In this document: positions 1,625 through 23,837 of the stretch, piece by piece
Numbering within the stretch: position 1 is the stretch's first letter
Layout of the letters: the number at the start of each line of letters is the position of its first letter
Notes under the pieces: generated by a model
Seen by the model: only the letters and a program-made list of their open reading frames with translations
Told to the model about the DNA's origin: nothing
Database searches by the model: none
Translations under genes and position numbers: made by a program
NCBI RefSeq assembly: GCF_001921205.1
Contig: NZ_MSIE01000059.1
Coordinates: forward strand, 1-64,000
Source of the DNA: Actinophytocola xanthii
Lineage (GTDB): Bacteria > Actinomycetota > Actinomycetes > Mycobacteriales > Pseudonocardiaceae
Length of the DNA: 64,000 nucleotides
Reading direction: 5' to 3'

Positions 1625-1923
1625 CCGCGACGCCGCACCTCCTCGGACACCTGGTCCATGAACCAGCGCATGATCTCGTAGGGAACGACGGTCTCGCCGG
1701 CGCCGTGCAGGTGGACGGTCGGCTCGCGTTCCGGGTCCTCGTCGGGGACCACCGCCGTCAGAAAGGCGTCTCCGGCCAGGTGGGTGACCGAGCCGGGGAT
1801 CTCCGCCCACTCGGCCGGCGCCGGCACGGCCTCGCTCAGCTCGACGTGCCAGGCGGAGTCAGGTACGGCGTAGTGATGCTGGACGGCGTAGCGACGCTCG
1901 CCGTGCACACGGAACTCCGGCAT
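1621..1923 (-). CDS. hypothetical 100-residue protein, last gene of the polyamine-type operon
   Basis: The protein starts MPEFRVHGERRYAVQHHYAV and ends in a charged helix (MDQVSEEVRRRG). It is acidic and rich in His, Trp and Tyr, with no signal peptide, membrane segment or cysteine. I do not recognise the family. A compact beta-rich fold is possible given the alternating hydrophobic pattern. The ATG at 1923 lies 16 nt after the stop of the saccharopine-dehydrogenase-like gene, so the two are probably co-transcribed. Its stop codon overlaps that of the aldehyde dehydrogenase on the other strand. The role is unknown. Its place suggests an accessory function in the same amine pathway. Confidence 0.65.
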   Translation of the reverse strand: MPEFRVHGERRYAVQHHYAVPDSAWHVELSEAVPAPAEWAEIPGSVTHLAGDAFLTAVVPDEDPEREPTVHLHGAGETVVPYEIMRWFMDQVSEEVRRRG

Positions 1924-1939
1924 GTCCACACGGTGCCAC

Positions 1940-3115: not shown

Positions 3116-3915
3116 ACGACCCTTGCCTTCCGCCGCCCGCGCAGCTGCACGACCAGCACCAGTACGAACGCGAGCAGGAACACCGCGGTGCCGATCACGT
3201 TGACCTCCCGGGGAATCCCGCGCTGGGCCGCGCCCCAGACGAACATCGGGAAGGTCACCGTCGTGCCGGAGTTGAAGTTGGTGATGATGAAGTCGTCGAA
3301 GGACAGCGACAGCGACAGCATCGCCGCGGCCGCGACGCCGGGCAGCACCAGCGGCAGCGTCACCCTGCGGAAGGTCTGCCACTCGTCGGCGTAGAGGTCC
3401 ATCGCCGCCTCCTGCAGCCGCGGGTCCAGGCCGGCGAGCCGTGCCTTGACCGTGACGACCACGAACGACAGGCAGAACAGGACGTGGGCGACGACGACCG
3501 TCCAGAACCCCAGCGGCACCCGCAGCGTGACGAACAGCGCCAGCAGCGACGAGCCCAGCACCACCTCCGGTGTCGCCATCGGCAGGAACACCAGTACGTT
3601 GGCGGTCGCCCGACCGCGGAAGCGGTGCCGCGCCATGGCGAACGCCATCAGCGTGCCGAGCACGGTGGCCAGGACCGTCGCGACCAGCGCGATCCCCACG
3701 CTGACCCGCAGCGCGTCGCCGATCCCCGCGGTGGCGAAGGGGTGCAGCCAGTAGTCCAACGTCCACTGGGCGGACAGGTCGTAGGACAGCCGGCTGGTCG
3801 GGCGGTTCAGCGACAGCAGGAACACCACGAGGATCGGCAGGAACAGATAGGCCAGGACCAGCAGGCCGACCGCGAGCACCCAGTGGTCGGCCAGCCAGCG
3901 CCAGAAGCGGTGCAC
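3112..3915 (-). CDS. ABC transporter permease, PotC/PotI-like
   Basis: This 267-residue inner-membrane permease has about six hydrophobic helices, beginning with VLAVGLLVLAYLFLPILVVFLLS. The coupling loop EAAMDLYADEWQTFRRVTLPLVLPG matches the EAA motif of binding-protein-dependent permeases. It is the second, PotC-like permease of a spermidine/putrescine-type importer. The start is GTG at 3915, immediately after the stop of the partner permease. The stop overlaps the next gene by 4 bp (ATGA), so the operon is tightly packed. The substrate is inferred from the family and neighbours and has not been demonstrated. Confidence 0.88.
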   Translation of the reverse strand: MHRFWRWLADHWVLAVGLLVLAYLFLPILVVFLLSLNRPTSRLSYDLSAQWTLDYWLHPFATAGIGDALRVSVGIALVATVLATVLGTLMAFAMARHRFRGRATANVLVFLPMATPEVVLGSSLLALFVTLRVPLGFWTVVVAHVLFCLSFVVVTVKARLAGLDPRLQEAAMDLYADEWQTFRRVTLPLVLPGVAAAAMLSLSLSFDDFIITNFNSGTTVTFPMFVWGAAQRGIPREVNVIGTAVFLLAFVLVLVVQLRGRRKARVV

Positions 3916-4845
3916 TCAGACCACCTCCTCTGTTCCAGCGGCACGCACATAGGACAGGACCATCACCAGAATCGTGGCCATCAGCAGGAACGACAGCGCC
4001 GCGGCCTGCGGGTAGTCCAGCCGCACCAGGAACGCCGAGTCGATCACGTTGCCCACCATGTACTGGTTGGGCGTGCCGAGCAGCTCGGCGTTGATGTAGT
4101 CGCCGGCGGCGGGGATGAACGTGAGCAGCGTGCCGGCCACCACGCCGGGCATGGACAGCGGCAGCGTGACCCAGCGGAAGGTCGTCACCGGCTTCGCGTA
4201 CAGGTCTCCGGCCGCCTCGAGCAGCCGCCCGTCGAGCCGCTCCAGGCTGGCGTAGAGCGGCAGCACCATGAACGGCAGGAAGTTGTACACCAGCCCGCAC
4301 ACCACCGCCGCGGGGGTGGCGAGCAACCGGAAGTCGTCGGGAACGAACGGGACGGCGCGTAGGACCCCCACCACCGGACCGTTGTCCGACAGGATCGACT
4401 TCCAGGCCAGCGTGCGGACCAGGAACGTGGTGAAGAACGGTGCGATGACGCACACCAGCAGCAGGGTGCGCCACCGGCCGGCCTTGTGCGCGATGGCGTA
4501 GGCCAGCGGGTAGCCGAGCACCAGGCAGATCACCGTGGCGATGCCGGCGTAGCCGGCCGAGCGCAGCAGGTGCGGCCAGTAGGCCCCGATCGCGTCGAGG
4601 TAGTTGACGAAGGCGAAGGTCTGCGAGTAGCCGGTCTCCAGGCTGCCCGACCGGTCGTAGAGGCTGGTGCCGGCGAGCTGGACCGAGGGCACCACGAAGA
4701 ACAGCAGCAGCCAGAGGCCGCCGGGGAGCAGCAGCAGGTAGGGCGTGAGCCGCCGCCTCCGCCGTCCCGCCACCGCCTCCACCGGCACCGGCGGCGGGCC
4801 GCCGGGGGTAGCGGCACCCGCGGCCGCACCGACAGCGGCCGTCAC
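3916..4845 (-). CDS. ABC transporter permease, PotB/PotH-like
   Basis: This 309-residue permease has a Pro/Gly-rich cytoplasmic N-terminus (about residues 1-30), a first membrane helix YLLLLPGGLWLLLFFVVPSV, and several more helices. The EAA loop reads LLEAAGDLYAKPVTTFRWVT. It pairs with the permease encoded next to it to form the channel of a polyamine-type importer. The ATG at 4845 overlaps the stop of the ATPase gene by 4 bp. Family length and gene order match potABCD-type systems. Confidence 0.88.
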   Translation of the reverse strand: MTAAVGAAAGAATPGGPPPVPVEAVAGRRRRRLTPYLLLLPGGLWLLLFFVVPSVQLAGTSLYDRSGSLETGYSQTFAFVNYLDAIGAYWPHLLRSAGYAGIATVICLVLGYPLAYAIAHKAGRWRTLLLVCVIAPFFTTFLVRTLAWKSILSDNGPVVGVLRAVPFVPDDFRLLATPAAVVCGLVYNFLPFMVLPLYASLERLDGRLLEAAGDLYAKPVTTFRWVTLPLSMPGVVAGTLLTFIPAAGDYINAELLGTPNQYMVGNVIDSAFLVRLDYPQAAALSFLLMATILVMVLSYVRAAGTEEVV

Positions 4846-5978
4846 GGCGCGACGCCCAGCGGGTCGGCCGCGTACTGCGCGACCTCGTCACCCGACCCCG
4901 CCGGTCGGTCCAGGACGAACGAGTGCGCCGGGTACCAGTAGGCGACGACCTCCGTACCCGGCGCGAGCGGCTCGCCCGCCGACTGGTTCGCCGAGAACAC
5001 CGACATCTCCTGGTCCCAGGGAGTCCGCAGCAGGTACTCGGTGCTCACCCCGGCGTAGCAGGTGTCGGTGAGCACGCCGCGCACCTGGTTGTGCCCGGCC
5101 GGGGCCGGCTCGCCCGGGGCCGTGAGCCGCACCTTCTCCGGGCGCACGCCCAACCACACCCGCCCCTCGGTGGAGCGCGCGCGGGCGGCCGGTGCCGCGA
5201 ACCGGGCGCCGTGCGCGGTCAGCTCGAGGTCCGCACCGGAGCGGCCGGCGACCTCGGCGGCGAACAGGTTGGACTGGCCGAGGAAGTTCGAGACGAATGG
5301 GTTCACGGGGAACTCGTAGATGTCGGTCGGCGCGCCCTGCTGCTCGATTCGGCCCTCGTTCATCACCGCGACCGTGTCGGCCATCCACATGGCCTCCTCC
5401 TGGTCGTGGGTGACGTGCAGGAACGTCGTGCCGACCTCGGTCTGGATGCGCTTGAGCTCGATCTGCATCTGGCGCCGCAGCTTGAGGTCCAGGGCCCCGA
5501 GCGGCTCGTCGAGCAGCAGCACCCGCGGCTCGTTCACCAGCGCCCTGGCCAGTGCGACGCGCTGCTGCTGGCCACCGGAGAGCTGGGCGGGCCTGCGTTT
5601 CTCGTACCCGGGTAACTGGACCAGCTCGAGCATCTCGGCCACCTTGGCCGCGACGTCGCGGCGGCCGCGCCGGCGCAGGCCGAACGCGATGTTCTCGCCG
5701 ATGTCCAGGTGCGGGAACAGGGCGTAGCTCTGGAAGACGGTGTTGACCGGCCGGCGGTACGGGCGCAGCGCGGTGATGTCCTGGTCACCGAGCCGGATGG
5801 TGCCCACGCTCGGCTCCTCGAGCCCGGCGACCATGCGCAGGGTGGTGGTCTTGCCGCAGCCGGAGGCGCCGAGCAGCGCGAAGAAGCTGCCCTGCGGCAC
5901 GGTCAGGCTCAGCTCGTCGACGGCGGTCATCGTGCCGAACCGCTTGGTGACGCCGGTCAGAACAAGGTCCTCAGCCAT
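4842..5978 (-). CDS. ABC transporter ATP-binding protein, PotA/PotG-like
   Basis: The 378-residue ATPase has Walker A GASGCGKTT, a Q-loop in TVFQSYALFPH, the signature LSGGQQQRVALARAL, Walker B VLLLDEPLGAL and the switch His in LHVTHDQEEAMWMAD. The C-terminal 130 residues form a TOBE-like regulatory domain, as in PotA and MalK. It energises uptake through the two permeases encoded downstream. The start at 5978 lies 4 nt after the stop of the binding-protein gene. The final residues overlap the permease start. Confidence 0.92.
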   Translation of the reverse strand: MAEDLVLTGVTKRFGTMTAVDELSLTVPQGSFFALLGASGCGKTTTLRMVAGLEEPSVGTIRLGDQDITALRPYRRPVNTVFQSYALFPHLDIGENIAFGLRRRGRRDVAAKVAEMLELVQLPGYEKRRPAQLSGGQQQRVALARALVNEPRVLLLDEPLGALDLKLRRQMQIELKRIQTEVGTTFLHVTHDQEEAMWMADTVAVMNEGRIEQQGAPTDIYEFPVNPFVSNFLGQSNLFAAEVAGRSGADLELTAHGARFAAPAARARSTEGRVWLGVRPEKVRLTAPGEPAPAGHNQVRGVLTDTCYAGVSTEYLLRTPWDQEMSVFSANQSAGEPLAPGTEVVAYWYPAHSFVLDRPAGSGDEVAQYAADPLGVAP

Positions 5979-11936: not shown

Positions 11937-14072
11937 CTACAGCTGGGACCAGGCGAGCTGGACGGTGCCCCGGTGGACGTTGTAGCCGTCGACCCAGATC
12001 CAGTACGTCGTGCCCGCCGAGGCGGTGAACTCGATCTGTGACTGCAGCGTCCCGTTGGCGTCGTCGTTGAACGCCGTCGCGGTCAGCTCGACGCCGGACT
12101 CGTTGGCGGCCGCGGCGAGGACCGTGTCGAAGTCCGACCCCGCCGTGCCGAACCGGAACGTGGCCGACGCGGGTGCGGTCCAGCGCCACCAGATCGAGGC
12201 GTCCGGCGTGGACCCGAAGTTCGGCTCACCCGGCTCGGCGGTGGCCCGCGCGTTCGACCCGGACCTCGCGCCGGCCGCCCCCGCGATCGGCGTGGCGTCG
12301 TTGAACAGGTCGTTGCTCGGCGGGTTCACGGCATGGCCGAGGACCGCGTTCCCCCGTCCGCCGGCGTAGCCGCTGAGCTGGATCAGGTAGGTCGTGCCGG
12401 CGGTGGCCGGGAACGACATCAACGACTGGAGCATGCCGTTGCTGTCGTCGTTGGCCGCGACCTGCACCATGGACGGCAGCGACCCGGTGTAGGCGGCCAG
12501 CGTCGTGTCGTAGTTCGAGCCGAAGGTGGAGAACCTGGCCGTACCGGACTCCGGCGCGGTCCACCGGTACCAGACCGAGGAGTCGCCCCGGGCGAAGACC
12601 GCGGCGGGCTCGCCGGCCTGACCGGTCGCGCGGGCGGTGCTGACGAACACCGGGCCGCCGGCCGCGCGGGCGAGGTCCGGCGCGCTCGCGACGTCGTCGT
12701 TGTCGGGGCGGTTCACGCCGTAGCTGAGCCGGTAGGTGCCGTAGTCGAAGCCGAAACCGTCGACCTGGATCCGGTAGGTGGTGCCGGCGACGGCGTTGAA
12801 CTCGACCTCGGACTGGAGCGAGCCGTTGGCGTCGTCGTTGCTCGCCACGGCGGACAGGCCGGTGACCGACGCTCCGGTGTAGACGTTCACCTGCGAGTCG
12901 AACCCGTGCTGGTTCACCGCGATCTGCGCGTTGCCGGACTCGGTCGGCGTCCACGTGTACCAGACCGACGCCTCCACACCGGCCTCGCCCGGGTCGAGCG
13001 TGGCGCTGTCGTTGCTGCCGGTCACCGAGCCCGCGTTGCCCGACAGCGCCTGGGCGGAGCCGAAGCGGTCGTTGCCCGGCCGCAGGATCTGGCTGTTGAC
13101 GAAGCTCTGCATGCCGCCCTGGTGCAGCTCGCCGTAGACACCCGGCTTGTTCGGCAGCGCACAGCCGGTACCCCAGCTGACGTCGCCGACCTGGATGTCC
13201 TGCGTCGGCGAGGTGATCACCAGTGGGCCGCCCGAGTCGCCCTGGCAGGAGTCCTGGCCGCCGGCCAGCGGACCGGCACCGATCATCGTCGCCGGGTCGA
13301 AGTCCGAGCCGTAGACCTGGGGCTGGGTCATGGTCGCGTCCGCCTGGATCGGCACGGCCACCTCGAGCAGCTGGTTGGACGACGAGGCGAGGCCGGTGGA
13401 GCCGTGCCCGATGACCGTCGAGGTGTCGCCCGGGTCGACCAGGTTGAGCTCGTTGCCCTGCGCCAGCCGCAGCCACTGCGCACCGCTGTCGGTACGGGTG
13501 ATGGGGCTGGCGAGGGTCAGCACGGCGACGTCGTTCTGGAAGGTGCCGGGGTTCCAGCCGGGATGGACGGCGATCCCGCTGATGTTGCGCACCACGCCGA
13601 CGTCGCCGCCCGACAGCGTGGTTCCACCGACGGTCACCTGGAGGCTCGCCGGGGTTGTGCCGCCGTCGACGCAGTGCGCCGCGGTGAGCACCTTGGTCGT
13701 GGTCAGCAGGGAGCCGCCGCAGAAGAAGTCGCCCGTGCCGCCGCTGGAGCTCTGCAGTGAGACGAAGTAGGGGTACTCGCCCAGGCTCGCGGGCGCGCCC
13801 CCGACGATCCGCTTGTTGGGGCCGTTGGGCCTGGTCTCCGGGCCGGGGACCTTCTCGTCGATGGCCAGCGGCGCGGGCGCGGCCGAGGTGGCCAGCCGGG
13901 TCTTGCCGACCGTCGGCGCTACGTAGGGCGCCTCGGCCGGCTTGTCGCCTTCCGGTGCCGCGCCCGCCGGTGCCGCGGCGCCCAGAACCAGCGCCGTGCC
14001 ACCGACCAGTCCGACGATCTCTCGCCACCAGGCCCGTGCTCTGGCCCGCGAGGCAATGCTGGAACCCAGCAT
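11937..14072 (-). CDS. secreted trypsin-like serine protease with three C-terminal repeat domains
   Basis: The 711-residue protein has a basic N-terminus and a hydrophobic export segment (IVGLVGGTALVLGAAAPAGA), then a propeptide up to KRIVGG near residue 88. The S1 protease domain has catalytic His133 (TAAHC), Asp181 (NDVAVL) and Ser280 (GDSGGP), all intact. After about residue 325 come three similar beta domains of about 120 residues. Each has an N-D-x-F/D start, a W-Y/W-x-W-T/T-A-P core and a D-D-x-N-G-x-L-Q motif, as in bacterial pre-peptidase C-terminal (PPC-like) domains. AGAAGGG precedes the ATG at 14072. It probably acts outside the cell on proteins bound by the repeats. Confidence 0.9.
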   Translation of the reverse strand: MLGSSIASRARARAWWREIVGLVGGTALVLGAAAPAGAAPEGDKPAEAPYVAPTVGKTRLATSAAPAPLAIDEKVPGPETRPNGPNKRIVGGAPASLGEYPYFVSLQSSSGGTGDFFCGGSLLTTTKVLTAAHCVDGGTTPASLQVTVGGTTLSGGDVGVVRNISGIAVHPGWNPGTFQNDVAVLTLASPITRTDSGAQWLRLAQGNELNLVDPGDTSTVIGHGSTGLASSSNQLLEVAVPIQADATMTQPQVYGSDFDPATMIGAGPLAGGQDSCQGDSGGPLVITSPTQDIQVGDVSWGTGCALPNKPGVYGELHQGGMQSFVNSQILRPGNDRFGSAQALSGNAGSVTGSNDSATLDPGEAGVEASVWYTWTPTESGNAQIAVNQHGFDSQVNVYTGASVTGLSAVASNDDANGSLQSEVEFNAVAGTTYRIQVDGFGFDYGTYRLSYGVNRPDNDDVASAPDLARAAGGPVFVSTARATGQAGEPAAVFARGDSSVWYRWTAPESGTARFSTFGSNYDTTLAAYTGSLPSMVQVAANDDSNGMLQSLMSFPATAGTTYLIQLSGYAGGRGNAVLGHAVNPPSNDLFNDATPIAGAAGARSGSNARATAEPGEPNFGSTPDASIWWRWTAPASATFRFGTAGSDFDTVLAAAANESGVELTATAFNDDANGTLQSQIEFTASAGTTYWIWVDGYNVHRGTVQLAWSQL

Positions 14073-14274
14073 GCTGTCCGCCCTTCTCACGTCGTCCACT
14101 CCAGGTGGGAAAAAACTTCCCGGGAGGTATGGAGCGGTGGCGAGGGGGGCAGATACGAGCGCGGCGCGGGTCCGCCCGTTCGGGCGACATCCCGCGCCGC
14201 GCGCGCGTTTCACCCCGACAAGGGGGGTCGTGACGTGAAAGTGGACGGCTGGGCGACGGTGCCCGGCACGCCGA

Positions 14275-17200
14275 TCAACCCATCGGGGTGATCTCCTCGT
14301 ACCGCGAGGGGTCCTCGATGCCCGGCTTCGACCTGGTCACCGGTGGCAGCGCGGAGACCGTGCCGGGGGGCGGCATCTCGGTCGTGCTCCGGCGGCGCCG
14401 GGACGAGCTCTTCCGGGCGGAACCGCCCCGTGCGGGCTTGGGCGGGTCGGGGAGGATGGGTGCCGCGCGGCCGGCTGGGGGTTGACCGGCCGCGCGGCTG
14501 TCGGGGGGCGGGGGGTCGGATGGGCTCAGGGGTCGGGCCGTGCGGTCGTCGGCCGGGTGGGCCGGCGGGGTCGGCGCCTCGGCCGGGGGAACCGAGGCGA
14601 ACAACCGCTCCCGCGGTGGCGTGTCGGGCACGGTCACCGGCGGCGGCGCCTGCCGAGCGACCGCGGGCATCCCGCCGGAGGAGGGGGGTTCCGGCCACGG
14701 CGGCCGGGTGGCCTCGTGGGCCGGCGCCATGCCGCGCGAGGACGCGGTCGCCGGAGGCATCCCCGGCGAGGAGGCGACGGCCGAGGGCCACCGACCGGAC
14801 GCCGACGGGTCACCGACCCGCGGCATCCCCGGCGAGGAGCCGGTAGCCGGCCACATCCCGGGCGAGGACGCCTGCGGCCCCATCGGGCCGCGGGCCGGCG
14901 GCATCCCCGGGGAGGACGCCTGCGGCGCCACCCCGCCGAAACCACGAGCCGGAGGCATCCCCGGCGAGGAGGCGACGGCCGAGGGCCACCGACCGGACGC
15001 CGACGGGTCACCGACCCGCGGCATCCCGGGCGAGGAGACCTGGGCGGCGCCGTTCACCGGGCGACCGTTCCCGACCGGGGGCATCCCGGCCGCGGACCCG
15101 TTCACCGGCCTGCCGCCCCAGGACGGGCCACCCGACCCGTTCACCGGCGGAGCCTCCACCGGCGGCAACCCAGCAGCAGAACCATTCACCGGCCTGCCAT
15201 CCCAGGACGAACCACTCGACCCGTTCACCGGCCTGCCGCCCCACGACGGGCCACCCGACCCGTTCACCGGCGGAGCCTCCACCGGCGGCAACCCAGCAGC
15301 GGAACCGCTCGCCGGGCGGCCGTTCCAGGACGAGCCGGTCAGCGACCGGACCTCGGTGACCTCGCTCGAGGAGAGCGCGGAGCCGTTGACCGGCGGCATG
15401 CCGGACGAGGAGGCACCCGCCCACCCGGCGGACGATCCGTTCACCGGACGGCCGTTGCGGCTCGGCGGGTCGACCGGACGCATGCGCGCGGAGGAGGCAC
15501 GGGGGTCCTGCACCGGCGGCACCCCGCGCGCGGACCGCGGCGGCTCGACGCCCGGCGAGAACGCGTAGGCCGGCGGCATCCCCGACGACGAGGCGGTCGC
15601 CGCCGAGGTCCCGGGCGAGGTCGCATCCACCGGCGAAGCGCCGGCGAACGACGACGTGGCCCGGGTGGCGGGTCTCTCGCTCGGCCGTCGCTCGACCGGT
15701 GCGAGCCGGTGCGCGGAGGCCTGTGCGGAGCCCTGTGCCAAGCCCTGTGCCAAGCCCTGTGCCAAGCCGTGGTCGCCCGGCCGCGTCGGCGGGAGGCTGG
15801 GCTGGGACAGGCTGGGCGGGGACAGGTCCGCGGGCAGCAGGCGTGCCGCCGACGAGGTGGCCCGCGACGTGCTGGGGGCGACGAACCTGGTCTGCACCGG
15901 CGGCGTGGCGGCGCGGGCCGGTGGCAGCCCCGGAGAGGTGGCCCCGGAGAACCTCGCGCGGGTCGGCGGCGGGGTCTCCCGCACGGGGGCGGCGGGAACC
16001 GCCGTCGAGGACGCACCGGGGGCGGAGAACCTGGCCGGCGCCGGAGGAACCTCGGGCGCGCTGTGGGAGCCGCTCCGCGAGCGACCGTTGCGCCGCGCGG
16101 GAGGCAGCGGCGGCGGCTCGTCGTCCGGCGCCGCGTGGCGACCGGAACGCTGCTCCCCCGCCGGCTTCATCAGCGGGACGGAGGCCAGCGCCGGACCGGC
16201 GGCCGGCTCGCTCGGCGCGGCCACCGACGGCCAGGGCGACTTGGTGCGCGAGAGAGGCGTAGCGGCGATCGACTCGGTCATCACCTCCGCCTGGGCTCGC
16301 CGCTGTGCCCGGGTCAGGTTGGTCTCCCGAACCACCGGGATCGACTGGGTGGGATCCGCGGCCTCCCGAGAACGCCGCCCGAAGGGCGCCGAGTCCGTAC
16401 TACCGACCGGGGGTATCGAGTCAGTCACCTCCTCCGCTGTGGTCCGGTGCTTCGAGTCACCAGAACCAACCGAGCGCCCGACATCCGAGCGCCGCCCCGA
16501 CGGCGCCGGACCACCCGCGCGAACCGCGGGCATCGAGGGCATCGAGTCCATCGGGCCGACCGGTCGGGCCGGGGGTGGGGGCTCCACCGCCGGCTCCGGC
16601 CGGACCATCGTCGTCTCCAGTGCGTTGGGGGGCGGCACCGGGGGGCGAACCGCCGACGTGGTGGCGGGGGCCGCCGGGGGTGGTGTCCGCACTGCCGTCG
16701 ACTCGAGCGCCGTCCGGTCCGGGGTCGGGGGATCCACCCCGGGGTCCGGCTTGCGCACGACCGGAAGCCTGGGCGCCGAGTCGACGGCCGGCATCGACAA
16801 CCACGAGTCCATCGCCTGGACCGAGGGCAGCTCCGGCCAGGAGTCGCTCGGCCGTGCCGCCGGCCGCATCGAGGGCCACGAGTCCTCGGGCCCGAGCGGG
16901 GGCCCGTCCATCGGGTCGATCGGCGGGATCGACGGCCCGGTACCCCTCGCCCGCGAGGGCCAGGAGATCTCCGGCCCGAGCGGACGCTGGTCCCTGCCGC
17001 CGCCACCGCCGCCACCGCCGGGCGGCAGTGCCGAACCGCGGTCGGACGGCAGGGCCGACCAGGAGTTCGCGGGGCCGTGCTCGGAGCCGGCGGACATGCC
17101 GCCGGCGGAGGCCATGGCGCCGACCGCCGGCACCGGCACCGACCGCCGGATGACCCGGATCTCGGTCTGGCTCTCCGCCTCGACCTCCGGCGCCGGCGCG

Positions 17201-18435
17201 GGTTCCGGCGCCGCCGGGGCCGCGGCGCGCACCGGCGCTGGGCGCCGCCGCATCGCCTCGGTGGTCCGTTCGTCCAGCTCGGCGGTCCAGTGCAGCATCC
17301 CCTTCGGGCTGTCGAAGCCCATCACCCCGAGCAGCTCGCCGTTGCTCACGTACCCGGTGATCCGGTGGCCCACGTTCACCGAACCGGCCAGCGGCACCGT
17401 GTCCTGGGCGAGCGCGGGAAGCCCGGCGCCCTGGATGCGCATGCCGTGCTGGTCGGTCCAGAACCGGGGCAGGGGCGTGAACGGCTTTGCCGCCTCCCGG
17501 CCGGCCAGCAGGTTCTCCGCGGCGGCCCGGCCCATCTCGACGGCGTTCAGCCAGTGCTCGACGCGGCGGGGGGCGGTGTCGAACCTCAGGTTCGGCCAGC
17601 GCGCCACGTCACCGGCCGCGACGACGTCGTCGGCGCCAATGGCGTGGCAGGTCGCGTCGCACATCACGCCGTCGTCGAGGATCAGGCCGGAGCCGCGCAG
17701 CCAGCTCACCGCGGGCACAGCGCCGACGGCCAGCACGACACAGCTCGCGACCACGACCTGCCCGGTCGTGAGGTGCATCGCCACGCCGTCGCTCTGGCGC
17801 ACCCAGTGGTGCACCTCGGCCTCGGTGATGATCTGCACGCCGTGCGCGTCGTGCAGGGCGGTGACCGTCTCACCGAGGTCGGTGCCGGGCACCCTGGTCA
17901 GCAGGCCGCTGTCCTTGGTGACGATCGTCGCGTCGCGACCCAGTGCCCGGGCGGCCGAGGCCAGCTCACAGGCGAGGAAGCCGCTGCCGATGACCGCGAG
18001 GCCGCCCTTGCCGCGGCGCAGGCTCTTCTGCACGGCGACCGCGTCGGCGACCGTACGCACCACGTGCACCCTCGGGTCGTGCCGGGGGGCGCCCGGCAGG
18101 TGCTTGGCCTGTGAGCCGGTCGCGATGACCAGGCCGTCGTAGTCGATCTCCTCGCCGCCGGGCAGGTGCAGCACGTGCTCGTCCGGCTCCAGGTGCGAGG
18201 CCCGCACGCCGTAGCGCCAGACCGCGTCGAGGTCGGTGAGCACCGGCAGGACGAGGTCGCGGGGGCGGGCGGTGCCCGTCAGCAGGTGCTTGGTCAGCCC
18301 CGGACGGTGATAGGTGCGGTAGGGCTCCTCCCCGATGATGACCAGCTCACCACCGAAGTTCAGCTCTCGCAACCGTTCGGCGGCACGGAGCCCTGCGGCC
18401 CCGCCGCCGACGACGACGATTCGCTCCCGACCCAT
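14275..18435 (-). CDS. ferredoxin reductase-like FAD oxidoreductase with a very long disordered tail
   Basis: The protein has 1386 residues. Residues 1 to about 398 form a complete FAD/NAD(P)H oxidoreductase: VVVGGGAAGLRAAE at 8-20 binds FAD, VIGSGFLACE at 148-157 binds NAD(P)H, and VVAAGDVARW at 271-280 is the second FAD motif. Related ferredoxin reductases end near here. About 988 further residues are rich in Pro, Ser, Gly, Arg and Ala, with repeats such as SSPGMPPA, PVNGS and SWPS. No membrane segment or cell-wall anchor is visible in the tail. The gene follows the ferredoxin gene with no gap, so it probably feeds electrons to it. The tail may form a scaffold or condensate, but its function is unknown. 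Confidence 0.88.
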   Translation of the reverse strand: MGRERIVVVGGGAAGLRAAERLRELNFGGELVIIGEEPYRTYHRPGLTKHLLTGTARPRDLVLPVLTDLDAVWRYGVRASHLEPDEHVLHLPGGEEIDYDGLVIATGSQAKHLPGAPRHDPRVHVVRTVADAVAVQKSLRRGKGGLAVIGSGFLACELASAARALGRDATIVTKDSGLLTRVPGTDLGETVTALHDAHGVQIITEAEVHHWVRQSDGVAMHLTTGQVVVASCVVLAVGAVPAVSWLRGSGLILDDGVMCDATCHAIGADDVVAAGDVARWPNLRFDTAPRRVEHWLNAVEMGRAAAENLLAGREAAKPFTPLPRFWTDQHGMRIQGAGLPALAQDTVPLAGSVNVGHRITGYVSNGELLGVMGFDSPKGMLHWTAELDERTTEAMRRRPAPVRAAAPAAPEPAPAPEVEAESQTEIRVIRRSVPVPAVGAMASAGGMSAGSEHGPANSWSALPSDRGSALPPGGGGGGGGRDQRPLGPEISWPSRARGTGPSIPPIDPMDGPPLGPEDSWPSMRPAARPSDSWPELPSVQAMDSWLSMPAVDSAPRLPVVRKPDPGVDPPTPDRTALESTAVRTPPPAAPATTSAVRPPVPPPNALETTMVRPEPAVEPPPPARPVGPMDSMPSMPAVRAGGPAPSGRRSDVGRSVGSGDSKHRTTAEEVTDSIPPVGSTDSAPFGRRSREAADPTQSIPVVRETNLTRAQRRAQAEVMTESIAATPLSRTKSPWPSVAAPSEPAAGPALASVPLMKPAGEQRSGRHAAPDDEPPPLPPARRNGRSRSGSHSAPEVPPAPARFSAPGASSTAVPAAPVRETPPPTRARFSGATSPGLPPARAATPPVQTRFVAPSTSRATSSAARLLPADLSPPSLSQPSLPPTRPGDHGLAQGLAQGLAQGSAQASAHRLAPVERRPSERPATRATSSFAGASPVDATSPGTSAATASSSGMPPAYAFSPGVEPPRSARGVPPVQDPRASSARMRPVDPPSRNGRPVNGSSAGWAGASSSGMPPVNGSALSSSEVTEVRSLTGSSWNGRPASGSAAGLPPVEAPPVNGSGGPSWGGRPVNGSSGSSWDGRPVNGSAAGLPPVEAPPVNGSGGPSWGGRPVNGSAAGMPPVGNGRPVNGAAQVSSPGMPRVGDPSASGRWPSAVASSPGMPPARGFGGVAPQASSPGMPPARGPMGPQASSPGMWPATGSSPGMPRVGDPSASGRWPSAVASSPGMPPATASSRGMAPAHEATRPPWPEPPSSGGMPAVARQAPPPVTVPDTPPRERLFASVPPAEAPTPPAHPADDRTARPLSPSDPPPPDSRAAGQPPAGRAAPILPDPPKPARGGSARKSSSRRRRSTTEMPPPGTVSALPPVTRSKPGIEDPSRYEEITPMG
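14750..15027. repeat. two exact 80-bp direct repeats in the reductase tail
   Basis: Bases 14750-14829 and 14948-15027 are identical. The offset is 198 bp (66 codons), so the reading frame is kept. Related shorter units (encoding SSPGMPPA) lie between and around them. This pattern suggests in-frame expansion of the low-complexity tail by slippage or recombination. Confidence 0.9.
15122..15300. repeat. two exact 56-bp direct repeats in the reductase tail
   Basis: Bases 15122-15177 and 15245-15300 are identical, with an in-frame offset of 123 bp (41 codons). They encode the PVNGS and GLPPVEAPPVNGS type units of the tail. Confidence 0.9.
15731..15766. repeat. tandem 12-bp repeat, three perfect copies
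   Basis: Three head-to-tail copies of CCCTGTGCCAAG encode a GLAQ tetrapeptide ladder on the minus strand in the reductase tail. A fourth, partial copy flanks them on each side. The array is a likely site of length variation between strains. Confidence 0.9.
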
Positions 18436-18687
18436 CTAACGCCTCTCGTTCAACGCGATCGCGAGCATCGGGCAGCTGCGCACAGCCGCCTTCGCCTGCT
18501 CGATCTCCGTGGCCGGCACCGATCGCAGGTACCGGAGACCGCCGTCGGTCGACATGCGGAACAGTGTCGGCGCCTCCGCGACACAGATCCCGTAGCGACG
18601 GCAGCGGTCGTTGTCCACGCTCAGGTGGTGGCGCGAGCGGTCCCTGGTACCCGTCCCGCTCGCGGTCTTCGTCTTGCGCGCGCTCAT
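18436..18687 (-). CDS. 3Fe-4S-type ferredoxin
   Basis: This 83-residue ferredoxin has Cys29, Cys35 (DRCRRYGICVAEAP) and Cys72 (SCPMLAI). The three-cysteine pattern, with no fourth cysteine, points to a [3Fe-4S] cluster as in ferredoxins that serve actinomycete P450s. A basic N-terminal tail of about 20 residues (KTKTASGTGTRDRSRHH) is unusual for the family. The ATG at 18687 overlaps the stop of the membrane protein gene as ATGA. The next gene, the reductase, starts right after its TAG stop. No P450 lies nearby, so its partner is more likely the membrane haem protein. Confidence 0.88.
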   Translation of the reverse strand: MSARKTKTASGTGTRDRSRHHLSVDNDRCRRYGICVAEAPTLFRMSTDGGLRYLRSVPATEIEQAKAAVRSCPMLAIALNERR

Positions 18688-19268
18688 CGCCGGTCCTCCA
18701 CCAGGCCGGCGGTGGACAGCGCCCGGGCCGGCATGAACCGCAGGCACATCACCACGACCGTGGGCACCAGCAGGGTGATCCCGCCGAGCCACACCGCGGA
18801 CAGCGTGCCGCTGGCGAGCGCGCCGAAGAAGGCGTGGATGACGCCCAGGACGAAGGCCGGGTAGGTGAGCCGGTGGATCCACGCCCAGCGCCAGTAGGAC
18901 ATCCAGCGCTTGAGCCCGACCGCGATCGAGGCGGCCAGCATGCCCTCGAGGGCGAGGGTGCCGAAGGCGTAGCGCAGTGTTCCGGTGAACGGAACGAACA
19001 CGTCGACGAAGCGGAACGCTCCGCTGTCGAGCATCAGCAGGGTGGTGCCGTGGACGGCCGCGAACGCCATGGCCAGGGTGGCCAGGATCTGGTGGCTGTT
19101 GCGCAGCGCCTCGCGGCCAGTGATCCGGTTGACCCATCCGGTACTGGTCAGCACGCCCCAGACCAGCGTCAGGCACATGAGTGCGTACGCGAGTCGGGCC
19201 GACAGCGTCGACACCTCGAGCACGCCACTGTCGTGCCCGGCGTCGGCAGCCGCCAGGTAGATGTGCAC
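18684..19268 (-). CDS. ferric-reductase-like membrane haem protein
   Basis: The 194-residue integral membrane protein has about five helices. Two helices carry paired histidines, SHQILATLAMAFAAVH and IHRLTYPAFVLGVIH, with 13-14 residue spacing. This matches the bis-haem b arrangement of ferric reductase-like and MsrQ/YedZ-like domains. The GTG start at 19268 has GGAGGAG about 6 nt upstream. It is the first gene of a three-gene set (membrane protein, ferredoxin, ferredoxin reductase). I infer electron flow from NAD(P)H through ferredoxin to haem across the membrane. The final acceptor is unknown. Confidence 0.82.
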   Translation of the reverse strand: MHIYLAAADAGHDSGVLEVSTLSARLAYALMCLTLVWGVLTSTGWVNRITGREALRNSHQILATLAMAFAAVHGTTLLMLDSGAFRFVDVFVPFTGTLRYAFGTLALEGMLAASIAVGLKRWMSYWRWAWIHRLTYPAFVLGVIHAFFGALASGTLSAVWLGGITLLVPTVVVMCLRFMPARALSTAGLVEDRR

Positions 19269-19360: not shown

Positions 19361-20953
19361 TCAGCAGTTCCGGCCGCTGTTGATGCAGCGCACGACCCGG
19401 TTCATCAACTGCGTCGGCATGACGTTGACGAAGTCGTTGTGATCGGTGATCGGGCTGTGCAGCTCATCGGGGAAGGCGTCGACAGCGTAGATGGCGCCCC
19501 GGGGGATGTTGTAGGTCAGTGTGATCCGCAGCTGCGGCACTGCCTGGAAGCCCTGCGGGCACGCCCCCCTCTGGTCGGCGAACGCCACGTGCGTGCGGTG
19601 GTTCGCGCTGTCGGTGTTCTGCCCGTCCCAGCAGCCCGGGAAGTCAGCGATGCGCTGGACCTGGCTGCCGCGGGGGCAGAGCGGGTACTTGTCGGTGATC
19701 CGGTTGGTGAAACCGGTGCAGGTCCACTTGGCGTTGGCGTTGGTCCCGCCCTGGGTCTGGGCCTTGGCGTTACCGGTCAGCACCCGGAGGAACTGCGGCA
19801 TCGCGACGACCCGGGACCGGGCGTTGCCCCGGAACTGGAGCTGGACCGCGGCCGGACGGAGCACCGTGCCGACGTTGTGGGCGTTGGCCTCGTCGGGCGC
19901 GCCGCCGCCGTTGGCGTCACGCAGACGCAGCACCGGCCAGAAGTACGTCGACAGGTCGCCCTGGGCACAGGTCGTGTCCGCCGCGGCGAGGCTCTCGTTG
20001 GTCGAGGCGGCACTGGCGTCCGTGTTGCCGACGTAGTCGTGCAGGTGGTGGGCGCCGTTGACGACGCCGGGCGAGACGATGAAGTTGTCGTTGTTGAAGT
20101 GGCCTTCACCGTTGGTGCCGCAGCGGGAGATGAACGTGCCGCGCGAGCCGCCCCGGCCGGTCCGCGGCGAGGCCGCGAGGTTGTTCACCGGGACCTGGCG
20201 GATGTTCACGAAGTCCTGCGGGAACGGGCCGAGCTCGTTCGTGCACTCCTCGTTGCCGAAGTCCTCCTCGGGAGCCTCGGAGGGCACCGGCGGGACGGTC
20301 TCGGCGGGCGGCGGGCCCTGCTCGCCGGGAACCTCGTTCGGGTCGGTGCTCACCGGCGGCTCACCCTCGGGAGCCTCACCGGTGGGCTGCTCCTCGGCCG
20401 GCGGCTGCTCGCTGGGCTGCTCCTCGGCCGGCGGCTGCTCCTCGGCGGGGGCCTCCTCGGTCGGCTGCTGGCCCCTCGGGGGACGCAGGCCCTGGGCGGA
20501 GGTCAGCCCGAAGTTCTGCACTTCCTCCTGAGCACCCTCGACCGGCTGCTCCTCGGCGGGAGCCTCCTCGGCAGGGGCCTCCTCGGCAGGGGCTTCCCCG
20601 GCGGGTGGCTGCTCCTCGGTAGCCCCTTCGGCGGGCGGAGCCTCCTCAGCTGGGGGAGCCTCCTCGGCGGGGGGAGCCTCCTCGGCCGGAGCCGACTCCG
20701 CCGGCGGGGCTGACTCCTCCGGGGGTGCGCTCTCCTCGGGCGGAGCGGACTCCGCCGGCGGAGGAACGACCTCGCTGGACGCGGGGGGTGGGACATCCGG
20801 CAGACACGGCACCGGACGGGGTGCCGCCTCGTTGTCGGCCTGCGCGGCACCGTAGATGCCGATTCCGACAGCCGTGCCGAGGATGCAGACCGCGGCCGTA
20901 CCCGCGGCGATCAGCCGTCGGCGCAGATGCCGCGGTATCTGGTGTCTTCCCAT
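19361..20953 (-). CDS. secreted DUF1996 protein with Pro/Glu-rich stalk
   Basis: This 530-residue protein has an N-terminal hydrophobic export segment (LIAAGTAAVCILGTAVGIGIYG). A stalk of about 200 residues follows, built from PAEEAP, PPEESA and EEQPPA repeats. The C-terminal 270-residue DUF1996 domain has the usual HHLHDYVGN, AHNVGTVLRPA and DFPGCWDGQNTDSANHRTH. These proteins are secreted in actinomycetes and fungi. Their biochemical role is not established, to my knowledge. The conserved His and Asp residues could bind metal or form a hydrolase site. GCGAGG precedes the ATG. It is probably the last gene of a unit starting at the SigL-like promoter (21643-21670). Confidence 0.88.
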   Translation of the reverse strand: MGRHQIPRHLRRRLIAAGTAAVCILGTAVGIGIYGAAQADNEAAPRPVPCLPDVPPPASSEVVPPPAESAPPEESAPPEESAPPAESAPAEEAPPAEEAPPAEEAPPAEGATEEQPPAGEAPAEEAPAEEAPAEEQPVEGAQEEVQNFGLTSAQGLRPPRGQQPTEEAPAEEQPPAEEQPSEQPPAEEQPTGEAPEGEPPVSTDPNEVPGEQGPPPAETVPPVPSEAPEEDFGNEECTNELGPFPQDFVNIRQVPVNNLAASPRTGRGGSRGTFISRCGTNGEGHFNNDNFIVSPGVVNGAHHLHDYVGNTDASAASTNESLAAADTTCAQGDLSTYFWPVLRLRDANGGGAPDEANAHNVGTVLRPAAVQLQFRGNARSRVVAMPQFLRVLTGNAKAQTQGGTNANAKWTCTGFTNRITDKYPLCPRGSQVQRIADFPGCWDGQNTDSANHRTHVAFADQRGACPQGFQAVPQLRITLTYNIPRGAIYAVDAFPDELHSPITDHNDFVNVMPTQLMNRVVRCINSGRNC

Positions 20954-21502: not shown

Positions 21503-21583
21503 TCAGACCTCGTCGCTCTCGCCGCGCCCGCCGTGTCTGGTGTACGGGGCGGGCGGGGCGATGCGGTCGCATCGGGTGCTCAT
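21503..21583 (-). CDS. possible 26-residue peptide or leader ORF
   Basis: A short frame begins MSTRCDRIAPPAPY and ends GRGESDEV. It has a clear ribosome site (AAAGGA) 8 nt before its ATG. It starts about 60 nt downstream of a SigL-like promoter, so it would be the first coding frame of that transcript. It has one Cys, no hydrophobic segment and no run of rare codons that would mark a classical attenuator. It could be a small regulatory leader, a secreted peptide precursor or chance. Confidence 0.4.
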   Translation of the reverse strand: MSTRCDRIAPPAPYTRHGGRGESDEV

Positions 21584-21642
21584 GGAGATTTTCCTTTCTT
21601 CGCAAGGATTTCCTTGGTCACCAGCACGTGCGGTCACCAGCA

Positions 21643-21670
21643 GATACGGAAACCCGGGAGTCACGGTTCA
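21643..21670 (-). promoter_or_regulatory. SigL-like ECF promoter reading toward the DUF1996 gene
   Basis: On the minus strand, TGAACC (21670-21665) is followed after exactly 16 nt by CGTATC (21648-21643). This resembles the promoter type recognised by mycobacterial SigL-group ECF factors (TGAACC, then CGT-something). The adjacent divergent gene encodes an ECF sigma factor of that kind. The predicted transcript would start near 21636. Two direct copies of GGTCACCAGC lie around the -10 (21616-21625 and 21632-21641). Confidence 0.55.
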
Positions 21671-21731
21671 ATCACGACGCCACGACAAGTGTGACGTAGG
21701 TCACTCGACATCTGGTTGCCCAAGGTCCACG

Positions 21732-22286
21732 ATGTGCGCCGTGAGCCGGCGTTCAAGACTCGACTTGGCCGGCGCGGAAGACGTCTCGGACAGAAACGAG
21801 GCGTTGGTCAGGATGCTCTACCGCGAGTTCGGTGGCGCGCTGTTCGGACATGTGCTGCACCTCACGGGCAATGACCGACAGTGGGCGGAGGACGTCGTGC
21901 AGGAGACCCTGGTTCGCGCCTGGCGCAATGCCGATCGACTGGATCGGGAGCCAGGCATGCTTCGTGCCTGGCTGTACACGGTGGCGCGTCGTATCGTCAT
22001 CGACGGACGGCGGAGTCACAGTGCTCGCCCGAGGGAGGTGGACGCCGCGCCGCTGGAGGCCATGCCGATCCCGGACGGGTCGGAGAAATCGCTGTCCGCC
22101 ATGGTCGTCGCCGAGGCTCTGCAGGGGTTGAGCCCCGAGCACCGAGAGGCGCTCGCGGAGACGTACCTGCGTGACCGGACGGTCAACGAGGCGGCGGCAG
22201 TGCTCGGGGTGCCGCCGGGAACGGTGAAGTCGCGGGTGTACTACGCCCTGCGCGCACTGCGGCAGCAGCTTCGGGACGGGGAGTAA
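21732..22286 (+). CDS. ECF RNA polymerase sigma factor, SigL-like
   Basis: This 184-residue ECF sigma factor has region 2 (LYREFGGALFGHVLHLTGNDRQWAEDVVQETLVRAWRN, about residues 30-70) and region 4 (LSPEHREALAETYLRDRTVNEAAAVLGVPPGTVKSRVYYALRALR, about 130-178). The ATG at 21732 has AAGG 7 nt upstream. A gap of 6 bp separates it from the anti-sigma gene, as in sigL-rslA pairs. GTGAC-4-GTCAC (21691-21704) lies just upstream and may be an operator. Sequence and gene order support the SigL-type group, but orthology has not been tested. Confidence 0.88.
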   Translation: MCAVSRRSRLDLAGAEDVSDRNEALVRMLYREFGGALFGHVLHLTGNDRQWAEDVVQETLVRAWRNADRLDREPGMLRAWLYTVARRIVIDGRRSHSARPREVDAAPLEAMPIPDGSEKSLSAMVVAEALQGLSPEHREALAETYLRDRTVNEAAAVLGVPPGTVKSRVYYALRALRQQLRDGE

Positions 22287-22292
22287 CCGACG

Positions 22293-23837
22293 ATGACCGC
22301 ACCACGCCACGTGGACGTAGGGGCCTACGTCCTGGGCATACTGGACGAACCGGACGAAGCCGCCTACGAGAAGCACTTCGCGCAGTGCGAGCAGTGCCGA
22401 CGTGAGTTCATCGAGCTGGCCGACATGCCGGCGGCGCTGGACATGCTGAAGCCGGGCAAGGCCGCGCCACCGGCGCCGCCACCGCTGTCGGACCTGATCG
22501 ACTTCTCGAAGCTGGGGCCGCCGCCGACATCGAGACGTTCGTCACCGCGGACCGCGTCGATGCCCTCGATGCCGGCCGTGCCGCCGCAACAGCGGCCGGC
22601 CGGTGCGACCCAGCCGCACAAGGTTCCCCCACGTCCCGGCGCCCACCCCCCGACGAACGGGGGCCCGAGGCCCGTCCCGGGACACGCCCCGCCCGCGGGG
22701 GCGGGCCCTCGTGCCAACGGCAGCGCCCGCCCCATCCTGCCCGGCCGGCCGAACCCCGCGACCCCACCCCCCGGAGCCGACGGCACCGGCCGACGCCTGC
22801 CCGCCGTCCCCCCGCCGGGAGCGGCACCCCACGGCCGCCCTCGCCCGGACGGGACGGGCCGCCACCAGCCGGCGACCCCGCCGGGAGGCACCCCCGCGGG
22901 AGGCCGCCCCGACGGAACAGGCCGGCACAAGCCCGCCACGCCGCCGGCAGGAAGTCCGGTCGCCGGGCGCTCCCGCGTCGAAGGCACGGGCCGCCACAAG
23001 CCGGCGACCCCACCGGCGGGCACCCCGATCGCCGGCCGCACCCGCGCCGAGGGCACCGGGCAGCACCCTGCCGCCACCGGGACGGGCCGGCACAAGCCGG
23101 CCACCCCACCGGCAGGCACTCCAGCCGCCGGCCGTGCCGGCCAACCACCCGCCACCAACCGGCCCGAGGGCACCGGCCGGCACAAGCCGGCCGGCACCCG
23201 GGCCGGGGGCGCGGACGTCCAGGCGTCCTCCCCCGCGCTCACGCCCGCCGCCCGACCGGCGACCAAGCCCACGGCGAAAGCACCCGCCAAGGCATCCAAG
23301 GCACCGGCGAAGCCGCCGACCAAGGCGAGGGACTCCCTGCCTGCCGGACGGGCCGGCGGCCGGCGGATGGCCAAGCCCATGTGGCTGTCGGCGGCCGCGG
23401 TCGTCGCGGTGGCGATGGTCGTGGGTGTGGTGATCAGCCTGTCCGGCGGCGGCGAGCCCGGCGACCAGGTGGCCGTTCCCTCGACGCAGGCCACCACCGC
23501 GCCCTCCGACGCGGTCGCCGGCGCCCACACCGTCAACGGCACCGACCCGGAGACCGGGATCACGGCGATCATCACTGTCGAACCCGTCGCCGACGGGACC
23601 GAGGTCGACCTCCTGCTCTACGAGGTCGACGGGCAGCGCCAGGGCACGCTCTACGCGGTGTCGCGGTTCGGCGAGCACAAGCGTGTGACCGCCTGGCGGT
23701 CCCCGCCCGGCGGCGCCGGCGCCCGGGAGGCCGTCCGCGCCTCAGGGATCGTCGACATGTCCCAGCAGGACATCATCCGCTTCGAGCTGATCGACGAGCA
23801 GGAGGGAATCGCTCCGGTGCTGGAAGTGCCGATCTGA
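22293..23837 (+). CDS. zinc-binding anti-sigma factor with long repetitive linker
   Basis: The 514-residue membrane protein has an N-terminal zinc anti-sigma domain with His28, Cys32 and Cys35 (HFAQCEQC), where sigma factor is bound and thiols sensed. A linker of about 260 residues follows. It is Pro/Gly/Thr-rich and carries five or so copies of a GTGRHKPATPPAG-type unit. One membrane helix lies near residues 363-388 (MWLSAAAVVAVAMVVGVVIS). A C-terminal outside domain of about 120 residues ends the protein. RslA of mycobacteria is much shorter, so the linker is unusual. It is co-transcribed with the ECF factor and presumably holds it at the membrane. Confidence 0.88.
   Translation: MTAPRHVDVGAYVLGILDEPDEAAYEKHFAQCEQCRREFIELADMPAALDMLKPGKAAPPAPPPLSDLIDFSKLGPPPTSRRSSPRTASMPSMPAVPPQQRPAGATQPHKVPPRPGAHPPTNGGPRPVPGHAPPAGAGPRANGSARPILPGRPNPATPPPGADGTGRRLPAVPPPGAAPHGRPRPDGTGRHQPATPPGGTPAGGRPDGTGRHKPATPPAGSPVAGRSRVEGTGRHKPATPPAGTPIAGRTRAEGTGQHPAATGTGRHKPATPPAGTPAAGRAGQPPATNRPEGTGRHKPAGTRAGGADVQASSPALTPAARPATKPTAKAPAKASKAPAKPPTKARDSLPAGRAGGRRMAKPMWLSAAAVVAVAMVVGVVISLSGGGEPGDQVAVPSTQATTAPSDAVAGAHTVNGTDPETGITAIITVEPVADGTEVDLLLYEVDGQRQGTLYAVSRFGEHKRVTAWRSPPGGAGAREAVRASGIVDMSQQDIIRFELIDEQEGIAPVLEVPI

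Follow-up and report, generated by a model that had tools for sequence, protein, structure and literature searches.

Ferredoxin reductases of the glutathione reductase (GR) type that use flavin adenine dinucleotide (FAD), such as HcaD, BphA4, TodA and putidaredoxin reductase, belong to dioxygenase and cytochrome P450 systems, and plant-type ferredoxin-NADP reductases have a different fold. The ferric reductase domain superfamily includes NOX and STEAP proteins and also MsrQ/YedZ. We analysed a 64,000-nucleotide stretch of Actinophytocola xanthii DNA (GCF_001921205.1, contig NZ_MSIE01000059.1, positions 1 to 64,000; hereafter the window) in which three consecutive genes encode members of known families: a Ferric_reduct-type membrane protein, a ferredoxin and a reductase. 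The reductase has the Pyr_redox_2 domain of the GR-type enzymes, the ferredoxin has the three-cysteine motif CxxXxxC...CP of P450-type ferredoxins, and the membrane protein, just over the Ferric_reduct cut-off, shares two His pairs with the ferric reductase superfamily and gave weak fold matches to STEAP1/2 and SpNOX. The reductase gene continues far beyond its folded domain. This tail, which an original prediction made from the sequence alone had singled out, is real and unusual: it is present in the orthologues of two congeners, contains a conserved island and is predicted to be disordered. Beyond that prediction, the trio forms part of a wider cassette that includes a sigma/anti-sigma pair, the genome has another operon paralogous to this one, and the choice of the tailed paralogue depends on the clade.

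The 1386-codon frame of the reductase is coding over its whole length. GC content at third codon positions (GC3) stayed within 0.81-0.96 across all 14 blocks, each about 100 codons long, in the domain as in the tail, and the roughly 988 codons predicted to follow the domain were confirmed as coding, rich in Pro, Ala, Ser, Gly and Arg. Repeats are prone to misassembly and the genome is a draft of 204 contigs; an assembly or frame error, such that the tail would not be one protein, is nevertheless extremely improbable because two separately assembled Actinophytocola relatives keep the tail. Past query position 390, the count is 996 codons for the gene of the window, 898 for that of A. xinjiangensis and at least 753 for that of A. 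gossypii, where its contig ends. In these separately deposited species the frame stays open for 1288 and at least 1143 codons, islands are shared with the window's protein, and the C-terminus is identical in one of them. Neither close orthologue shows a break in the tail frame. The tail is not universal: in three further congeners, A. algeriensis, A. oryzae and the metagenome-assembled genome Dino_bin25, the orthologue has just 31, 46 and 202 residues, respectively, in its place.

The folded part was delimited by profiles and by modelling. Pyr_redox_2 matched residues 5-302 with 163 bits (profile positions 2-291 of 291), Reductase_C matched residues 325-381 just below its cut-off (24.6 versus 25 bits), and an AlphaFold2 model of residues 1-1190, built from a 20-sequence alignment, is folded up to a helix ending at residue 397, in agreement with the earlier claim that the domain is complete by residue 398. 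The cut-offs of the NCBIfam equivalogs for dioxygenase ferredoxin reductases were not reached (HcaD, 201.3 of 450 bits; AndAa, 179.1 of 650). The best solved structure was 6tuk, named 'Putative oxidoreductase' (3.7e-43), followed by biphenyl dioxygenase ferredoxin reductases such as 4h4t (1.2e-41).

Over residues 399-1190 the predicted local distance difference test score (pLDDT) stayed below 50 almost without interruption. The tail is thus predicted to lack structure over these modelled residues, and as few of the 20 alignment rows span it, the low pLDDT is supportive of disorder and not proof. The only helix predicted in the modelled tail past residue 400 (residues 709-715) lies inside island 2 (Table 1). 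Among its 988 residues are 87 Arg, 15 Trp, 8 Phe and 2 Tyr. Both predicted in-frame duplications were located and are the longest exact direct repeats of the tail, and the GLAQ ladder was recovered as a tandem repeat.

Table 1. Features of the cassette and of the reductase tail, in positions of the window
Feature	Position	Strand	Remarks
FAD ferredoxin reductase with giant tail	14275..18435	-	1386 residues, ATG start
Folded reductase domain, residues 1-398	17242..18435	-	Pyr_redox_2; Reductase_C just below cut-off
Pro/Ala/Ser/Gly/Arg-rich tail, residues 399-1386	14278..17241	-	Predicted unstructured in modelled part (to residue 1190)
Tail island 1, residues 503-561 (PLGPEDSWPSM, SWPELPSVQAMDSWLSMPAVDSAPRLPVVR)	16753..16929	-	Conserved across the three long operon-A tails
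Tail island 2, residues 695-721 (PTQSIPVVRETNLTRAQRRAQAEVMTE)	16273..16353	-	At least 70% per 20 residues with A. gossypii only
Tail island 3, residues 1265-1286 (PPVTVPDTPPRERLFASVPPAE)	14578..14643	-	At least 70% per 20 residues with A. gossypii only
GLAQ ladder	15720..15768	-	12-bp unit x 4.1, tandem
56-bp exact in-frame repeat	15122..15177 (copy 1), 15245-15300 (copy 2)	-	Spacing 123
80-bp exact in-frame repeat	14750..14829 (copy 1), 14948-15027 (copy 2)	-	Spacing 198
Basic cluster RKSSSRRRRSTT	14380..14415	-	46 residues from C-terminus
C-terminal GIEDPSRYEEITPMG	14278..14322	-	Last 15 residues, identical in A. xinjiangensis; A. gossypii end lost at contig end
Three-cysteine ferredoxin, CxxYxxC...CP	18436..18687	-	Fer4_15 and Fer4_13 over cut-off
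Ferric_reduct-type membrane protein	18684..19268	-	H59, H73, H132, H145; Ferric_reduct 28.7 bits versus cut-off 28
DUF1996 protein	19361..20953	-	N-terminal hydrophobic stretch, Pro/Glu/Ala-rich spacer; directly upstream of the trio
Divergent extracytoplasmic function (ECF) sigma factor	21540..22286	+	Open frame, true start uncertain
Probable anti-sigma factor	22293..23837	+	zf-HC2-like start followed by a Pro-rich linker (about 300 residues), a single hydrophobic segment and a C-terminal domain

Each of six Actinophytocola genomes carries a second, paralogous operon elsewhere (operon B, the window's locus and its orthologues being operon A). The operon-B tails are short in the three genomes with a long operon-A tail (71, 60 and 62 residues in the window's genome, A. 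gossypii and A. xinjiangensis, respectively) and long in the other three (529 in Dino_bin25, 586 in A. algeriensis and 685 in A. oryzae). Exactly one reductase per genome bears a tail with the motif described below in all six, and the paralogue that bears it differs between the two clades. In a tree of 49 reductase domains, operons A and B stood apart, each grouping with reductases of other genera.

A short motif, S-x(2-3)-[ML]-[PRQ]-[PA]-[VA], recurs along the tails. It matched 21 times after residue 390 of the window's reductase, tandem copies counted, compared to a shuffle mean of 0.36. The three long operon-A tails contain 21, 10 and 23 copies, the three long operon-B tails 19, 11 and 27, and five Kibdelosporangium-type tails 6-12, with at most 3 in 1000 shuffles per tail, a control that does not model the tandem duplication by which such counts are swollen. 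A Gandjariella tail of 123 residues has 5 copies. No match was found in the five short Actinophytocola tails, in the 202-residue tail of Dino_bin25, or in the two Saccharothrix tails and one Crossiella tail examined. A further sequence, GPEDS[WFY]-x-x-[ML], is common to operon-A and operon-B tails, as read directly from the sequences. The recurrence of the motif on separate reductase lineages is a stronger point than the raw counts.

We also considered motif arrays in other proteins, which were dismissed as matches outside the reductase were few and weak in the 14 genomes searched. With an array probe over the six genomes of the genus, no strong match was observed outside reductase tails (best outside, 0.04); this probe did not detect the tail of the window's reductase itself at E up to 1, and another found it at 2.5e-19. 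Over eight genomes of the Kibdelosporangium genus, the matches outside the gene comprised a single short open frame (2e-4) and others that were weaker, starting at 0.01. Strong array matches thus appear almost confined to this reductase gene. The C-terminal basic cluster exceeds what composition would give in the window's protein and in A. xinjiangensis (0.001 of shuffles) and is weaker in three further tails (0.014-0.031); as it holds in only part of 19 tails, it was dropped as a general rule.

Outside Actinophytocola, all eight Kibdelosporangium-genus genomes have one reductase at E <= 1e-100 (four candidates scored per genome), and in all eight the array matches fall within or overlap its tail. 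Five of these tails measured 346-426 residues and one 388. In-match stop codons in one relative did not indicate a broken tail, the frame being open to a normal stop with the in-match stops beyond it. Five Crossiella genomes each have one copy with 118-234 tail residues and one with 32-46, two copies having been examined where there were three matches; the motif was absent from two of the longer Crossiella tails examined. The 145 reductases of the fetched loci, together with that of the window, reduced to 113 distinct ones, with tails from about 20 to about 1000 residues: 32 exceeded 100, 12 exceeded 300 and 6 exceeded 500. Reductases at or under 45% identity were left uncounted. For 53 of the counted reductases, a number taken before deduplication, a fixed position served as the end of the domain, and those lengths are good to about 10 residues. 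Loci L167 and L203, whose records bear the titles Nocardia sp. NRRL S-836 and Rhodococcus rhodnii NRRL B-16535, have tails like those of Lentzea and Kibdelosporangium, and their titles may be misassigned.

Identity among the three long operon-A genes was 0.88-0.92 in the domain and 0.43-0.47 in the tail, with ratios of non-synonymous to synonymous change (dN/dS) of about 0.15 and, over aligned tail codons, 0.53-0.60, respectively. The ratio for aligned tail codons remained below 1 in all six pairs of long genes (0.52-0.83). Islands were defined pairwise by 70% identity over 20 residues, and island 1 passed in all three operon-A pairs. Together with the identical 15 C-terminal residues, the dN/dS values and islands argue for a translated tail with some constrained spots within a fast-changing matrix.

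To place the tail in its context, we examined its neighbours. An alignment of 14 membrane proteins found 85 relatives, of which the best 80 loci were fetched, ranked by membrane-protein similarity; some genomes contribute two loci. The membrane protein, ferredoxin and reductase genes are in the same order in 80 of 80 loci. In the window, as the junction sequences confirm, the genes overlap or abut: the TGA of the membrane gene overlaps the ferredoxin ATG, and the ferredoxin TAG stands directly before the reductase ATG. The ferredoxin motif CxxXxxC...CP is present in all 80 loci (X being Tyr in 60 and Phe in 20) and its cluster is probably 3Fe-4S. Among solved structures, its best match covers residues 469-532 of a 6mcw chain that bears the name Cytochrome P450 51. 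The P450 profile (PF00067, E <= 1e-5) gave 33 matches in the genome and none on the window's contig, as expected from the claim of a chain without a P450. All 80 membrane proteins keep H59, H73, H132 and H145, spaced H-x13-H and H-x12-H, and the protein is probably of a two-haem b type. The model of this protein is of low confidence (mean pLDDT 60.4), and the best fold match obtained with it in the PDB, STEAP1, had an E-value of only 0.047; against PDB sequences its profile matched SpNOX at 0.0062 over 54 positions. The electron donor of the membrane protein is presumably the ferredoxin of the same operon. Gene order, ferredoxin cysteines and haem-type histidines, each constant in 80 of 80 loci, support the NAD(P)H-to-membrane chain proposed earlier.

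The cassette extends upstream. Sigma and anti-sigma homologues, divergent on the opposite strand, lie within 5.5 kb in 65 of 80 loci, and sigma matches alone occur in 72. Encoded upstream on the same strand are DUF4142 proteins in 70 loci, Lipoprotein_15 proteins in 59 and DUF1996 proteins in 7. DUF4142 is present at all six operon-B loci. Around the window's trio a DUF1996 gene was found and neither Lipoprotein_15 nor DUF4142 was seen, and the same holds for the orthologous loci of A. gossypii and A. xinjiangensis. Read directly, the Lipoprotein_15 and DUF4142 proteins have hydrophobic N-terminal stretches, the latter also a C-terminal one, because of which both are probably outside the cell or anchored. 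Fungal DUF1996 proteins are linked to stress and metal-ion responses in one source (PMC4738358). The window's sigma factor passed both cut-offs (Sigma70_r2, 60.3 bits; Sigma70_r4, 44.8 bits). Its probable anti-sigma factor remained below them (zf-HC2, 21.6 versus 22.2 bits; NCBIfam antisigma, 34.6 versus 100), and a relative in another locus (L141) is over the zf-HC2 cut-off with 29.7 bits. The alignment search (E <= 1e-20) recovered the membrane protein from 8 of 296 genomes sampled across the class, its own included, the other seven belonging to one other family. A single-sequence search (E <= 0.001) found it in 95 of 200 genomes of its own family, some matches being distant relatives only.

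In five of six Actinophytocola genomes the motif-tailed reductase stands beside the sigma/anti-sigma pair, and the sister operon has either no pair in the fetched stretch or no anti-sigma gene; for operon A of A. oryzae and A. algeriensis (L057 and L058), no such gene was seen beside the sigma factor. The anti-sigma linker is expanded in the clade with long operon-A tails, to about 300 residues in the window (read directly), 217 in A. gossypii and 157 in A. xinjiangensis (both estimated), and measures 31-49 residues everywhere else by the same kind of estimate. A family-wide coupling of tail and linker was accordingly dismissed, the Spearman coefficient being 0.37 for 71 loci, with some loci entered twice. 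The window's linker carries GTGRHKPATPPAG repeats before the membrane segment. Among 49 putative coding frames of the window, the longest Pro-rich runs of low hydrophobicity belong to the anti-sigma factor (333), the reductase (275) and the DUF1996 protein (229).

Some loci show other arrangements. In three Kutzneria loci (L150, L152 and L161) and in L074 of the same genus, a second ferredoxin reductase is encoded immediately before the gene of the membrane protein, on its upstream side. Amycolatopsis and Qaidamihabitans loci (L128-L132 and L138, about 1400-5200) have a second, opposite-strand block with sigma, anti-sigma, Lipoprotein_15 and DUF1996 matches, and four repeats were matched in the Lipoprotein_15 protein of L128. 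In the window, a trypsin-like protease with a match of pre-peptidase C-terminal type (11937-14213) is encoded directly downstream of the reductase on the same strand.

Taken together, these results suggest a sigma-linked electron-export cassette whose reductase has a multivalent docking or tethering tail. We give this whole picture a probability of roughly 0.48, and tethering itself less. The cassette probably works as an electron-export relay: the FAD reductase, its entry enzyme, would oxidise NAD(P)H and reduce the three-cysteine, probably 3Fe-4S ferredoxin; this would pass electrons to the four-histidine, probably two-haem membrane protein, and from there they would reach extracytoplasmic acceptors, for which the Lipoprotein_15, DUF4142 and DUF1996 proteins are candidates. 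The tail, a basic and predictedly disordered array of the short Pro/Met motif with a few more conserved stretches, would keep the soluble enzyme together with a partner, probably close to the membrane haem protein, once the cassette has been turned on, possibly by the neighbouring sigma factor. Docking or tethering is favoured because of the predicted disorder, the retention of island 1, the recurrent motif with its near-restriction to one gene, and the C-terminal basic cluster.

Several observations weigh against this picture. No partner of the tail was found in this sequence-based analysis. Islands 2 and 3 pass the 70% test with A. gossypii alone; the blocks that pass have dN/dS of 0.24-0.29 at a proportion of synonymous differences (pS) of 0.44-0.48, which counts in favour of the picture, but having been picked by identity their dN/dS is biased low. 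Among the long operon-B tails, two of three pairs, with dN/dS of 0.63 and 0.83, have no 70% block; only the third, A. algeriensis-A. oryzae (0.52), has such blocks. To the swelling of motif counts is added that in Kibdelosporangium and several others the basic cluster exceeds shuffle level scarcely or not at all, and that 81 of the 113 distinct reductases have tails of at most 100 residues. Dino_bin25 breaks the association of tail and regulators, the pair sitting at operon A and the tail in operon B, where no pair was found on a contig that ends about 4 kb upstream of DUF4142. On the tree the switch of the tail between paralogues is real; because the long operon-A tails form one clade (100/99) and the long operon-B tails another (100/95), it represents about two clade-level events, not six. 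Finally, the expanded anti-sigma linker and the Pro-rich DUF1996 spacer may reflect co-adaptation or a local tendency to grow low-complexity sequence, and the latter would speak against a docking role.

Such a tendency is the core of the main and serious rival, in which the tail is largely neutral: GC-rich coding repeats would grow by slippage and unequal crossing-over at a C-terminus that tolerates them, and the motif would be shared as a result of the bias of these genomes in amino acids and codons. The exact duplications of 80 and 56 bp, the wide range of tail lengths in the family, tail identities about half those of the domain in the operon-A genes, the dN/dS of up to 0.83 in operon B and the Pro-richness of other proteins of the locus are all as neutral growth would have it. 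It accounts less well for dN/dS below 1 in six of six pairs, for an island 1 kept while synonymous sites differ, for the identical C-terminus in A. xinjiangensis, and for similar arrays on separate reductase lineages with few, weak matches elsewhere in 14 genomes. We consider neutral growth unlikely on this balance, while taking it seriously.

The original prediction had proposed that the tail might tether the enzyme, drive condensate formation or hold many ferredoxins. Of these roles, we think tethering or docking more likely than condensate formation. In a condensate, Arg, Trp and Phe stickers between Pro/Gly/Ser spacers would concentrate the reductase and its partners; low pLDDT, the 87 Arg and 15 Trp and recurring motifs suit such a role, but Phe and Tyr are scarce, and ferredoxin and tail are both basic, so that co-condensation would need another partner. 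This makes it quite improbable. Net charge also bears on a tail that holds a pool of ferredoxin molecules: its repeats could offer many sites, yet the charges of ferredoxin (+8), tail (+23) and reductase domain (-7) favour ferredoxin on the domain and not on the tail, and such a pool is very unlikely.

No description of the cassette (sigma/anti-sigma pair, Lipoprotein_15, DUF4142, DUF1996, membrane protein, ferredoxin and reductase) or of the tail was present among the literature matches listed, which cover open-licence papers only, and this despite the membrane protein being common in its own family. The cassette links three families of unknown function to a concrete source of electrons and so makes these families testable. 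The tail constitutes a natural experiment on a very long disordered region of a redox enzyme, since close relatives bear it on different paralogues or not at all.

Compared with described systems, the window's reductase differs from HcaD, BphA4, TodA and putidaredoxin reductase by its long disordered tail, and from dioxygenase and P450 reductase systems in that no oxygenase was recognised among the cassette proteins examined. Unlike P450-type ferredoxins, its ferredoxin has a membrane haem-type protein as gene partner. Unlike NOX and STEAP proteins, that membrane protein has no FAD/NAD domain on the same chain. The closest analogy for the tail comes from the chloroplast, where repeats of Tic62 and TROL, in TROL beside a proline-rich region, are described as holding ferredoxin reductase at the membrane (PMC7108012). 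Repeated motifs tied to a ferredoxin reductase are what the systems would share, by analogy and not by a comparison of motifs. A bolder and rather doubtful extension is that the motif array is a portable functional module, present on one reductase per Actinophytocola genome and usually in the sigma/anti-sigma operon, which was transferred between two ancient paralogues or originated on them afresh, as it did once more in Kibdelosporangium, and which would gather an inducible electron-export chain at the membrane as a bacterial, in-cis counterpart of chloroplast recruitment. The Tic62 and TROL repeats act in trans, whereas those of the window are in cis, in one open frame with the reductase domain.

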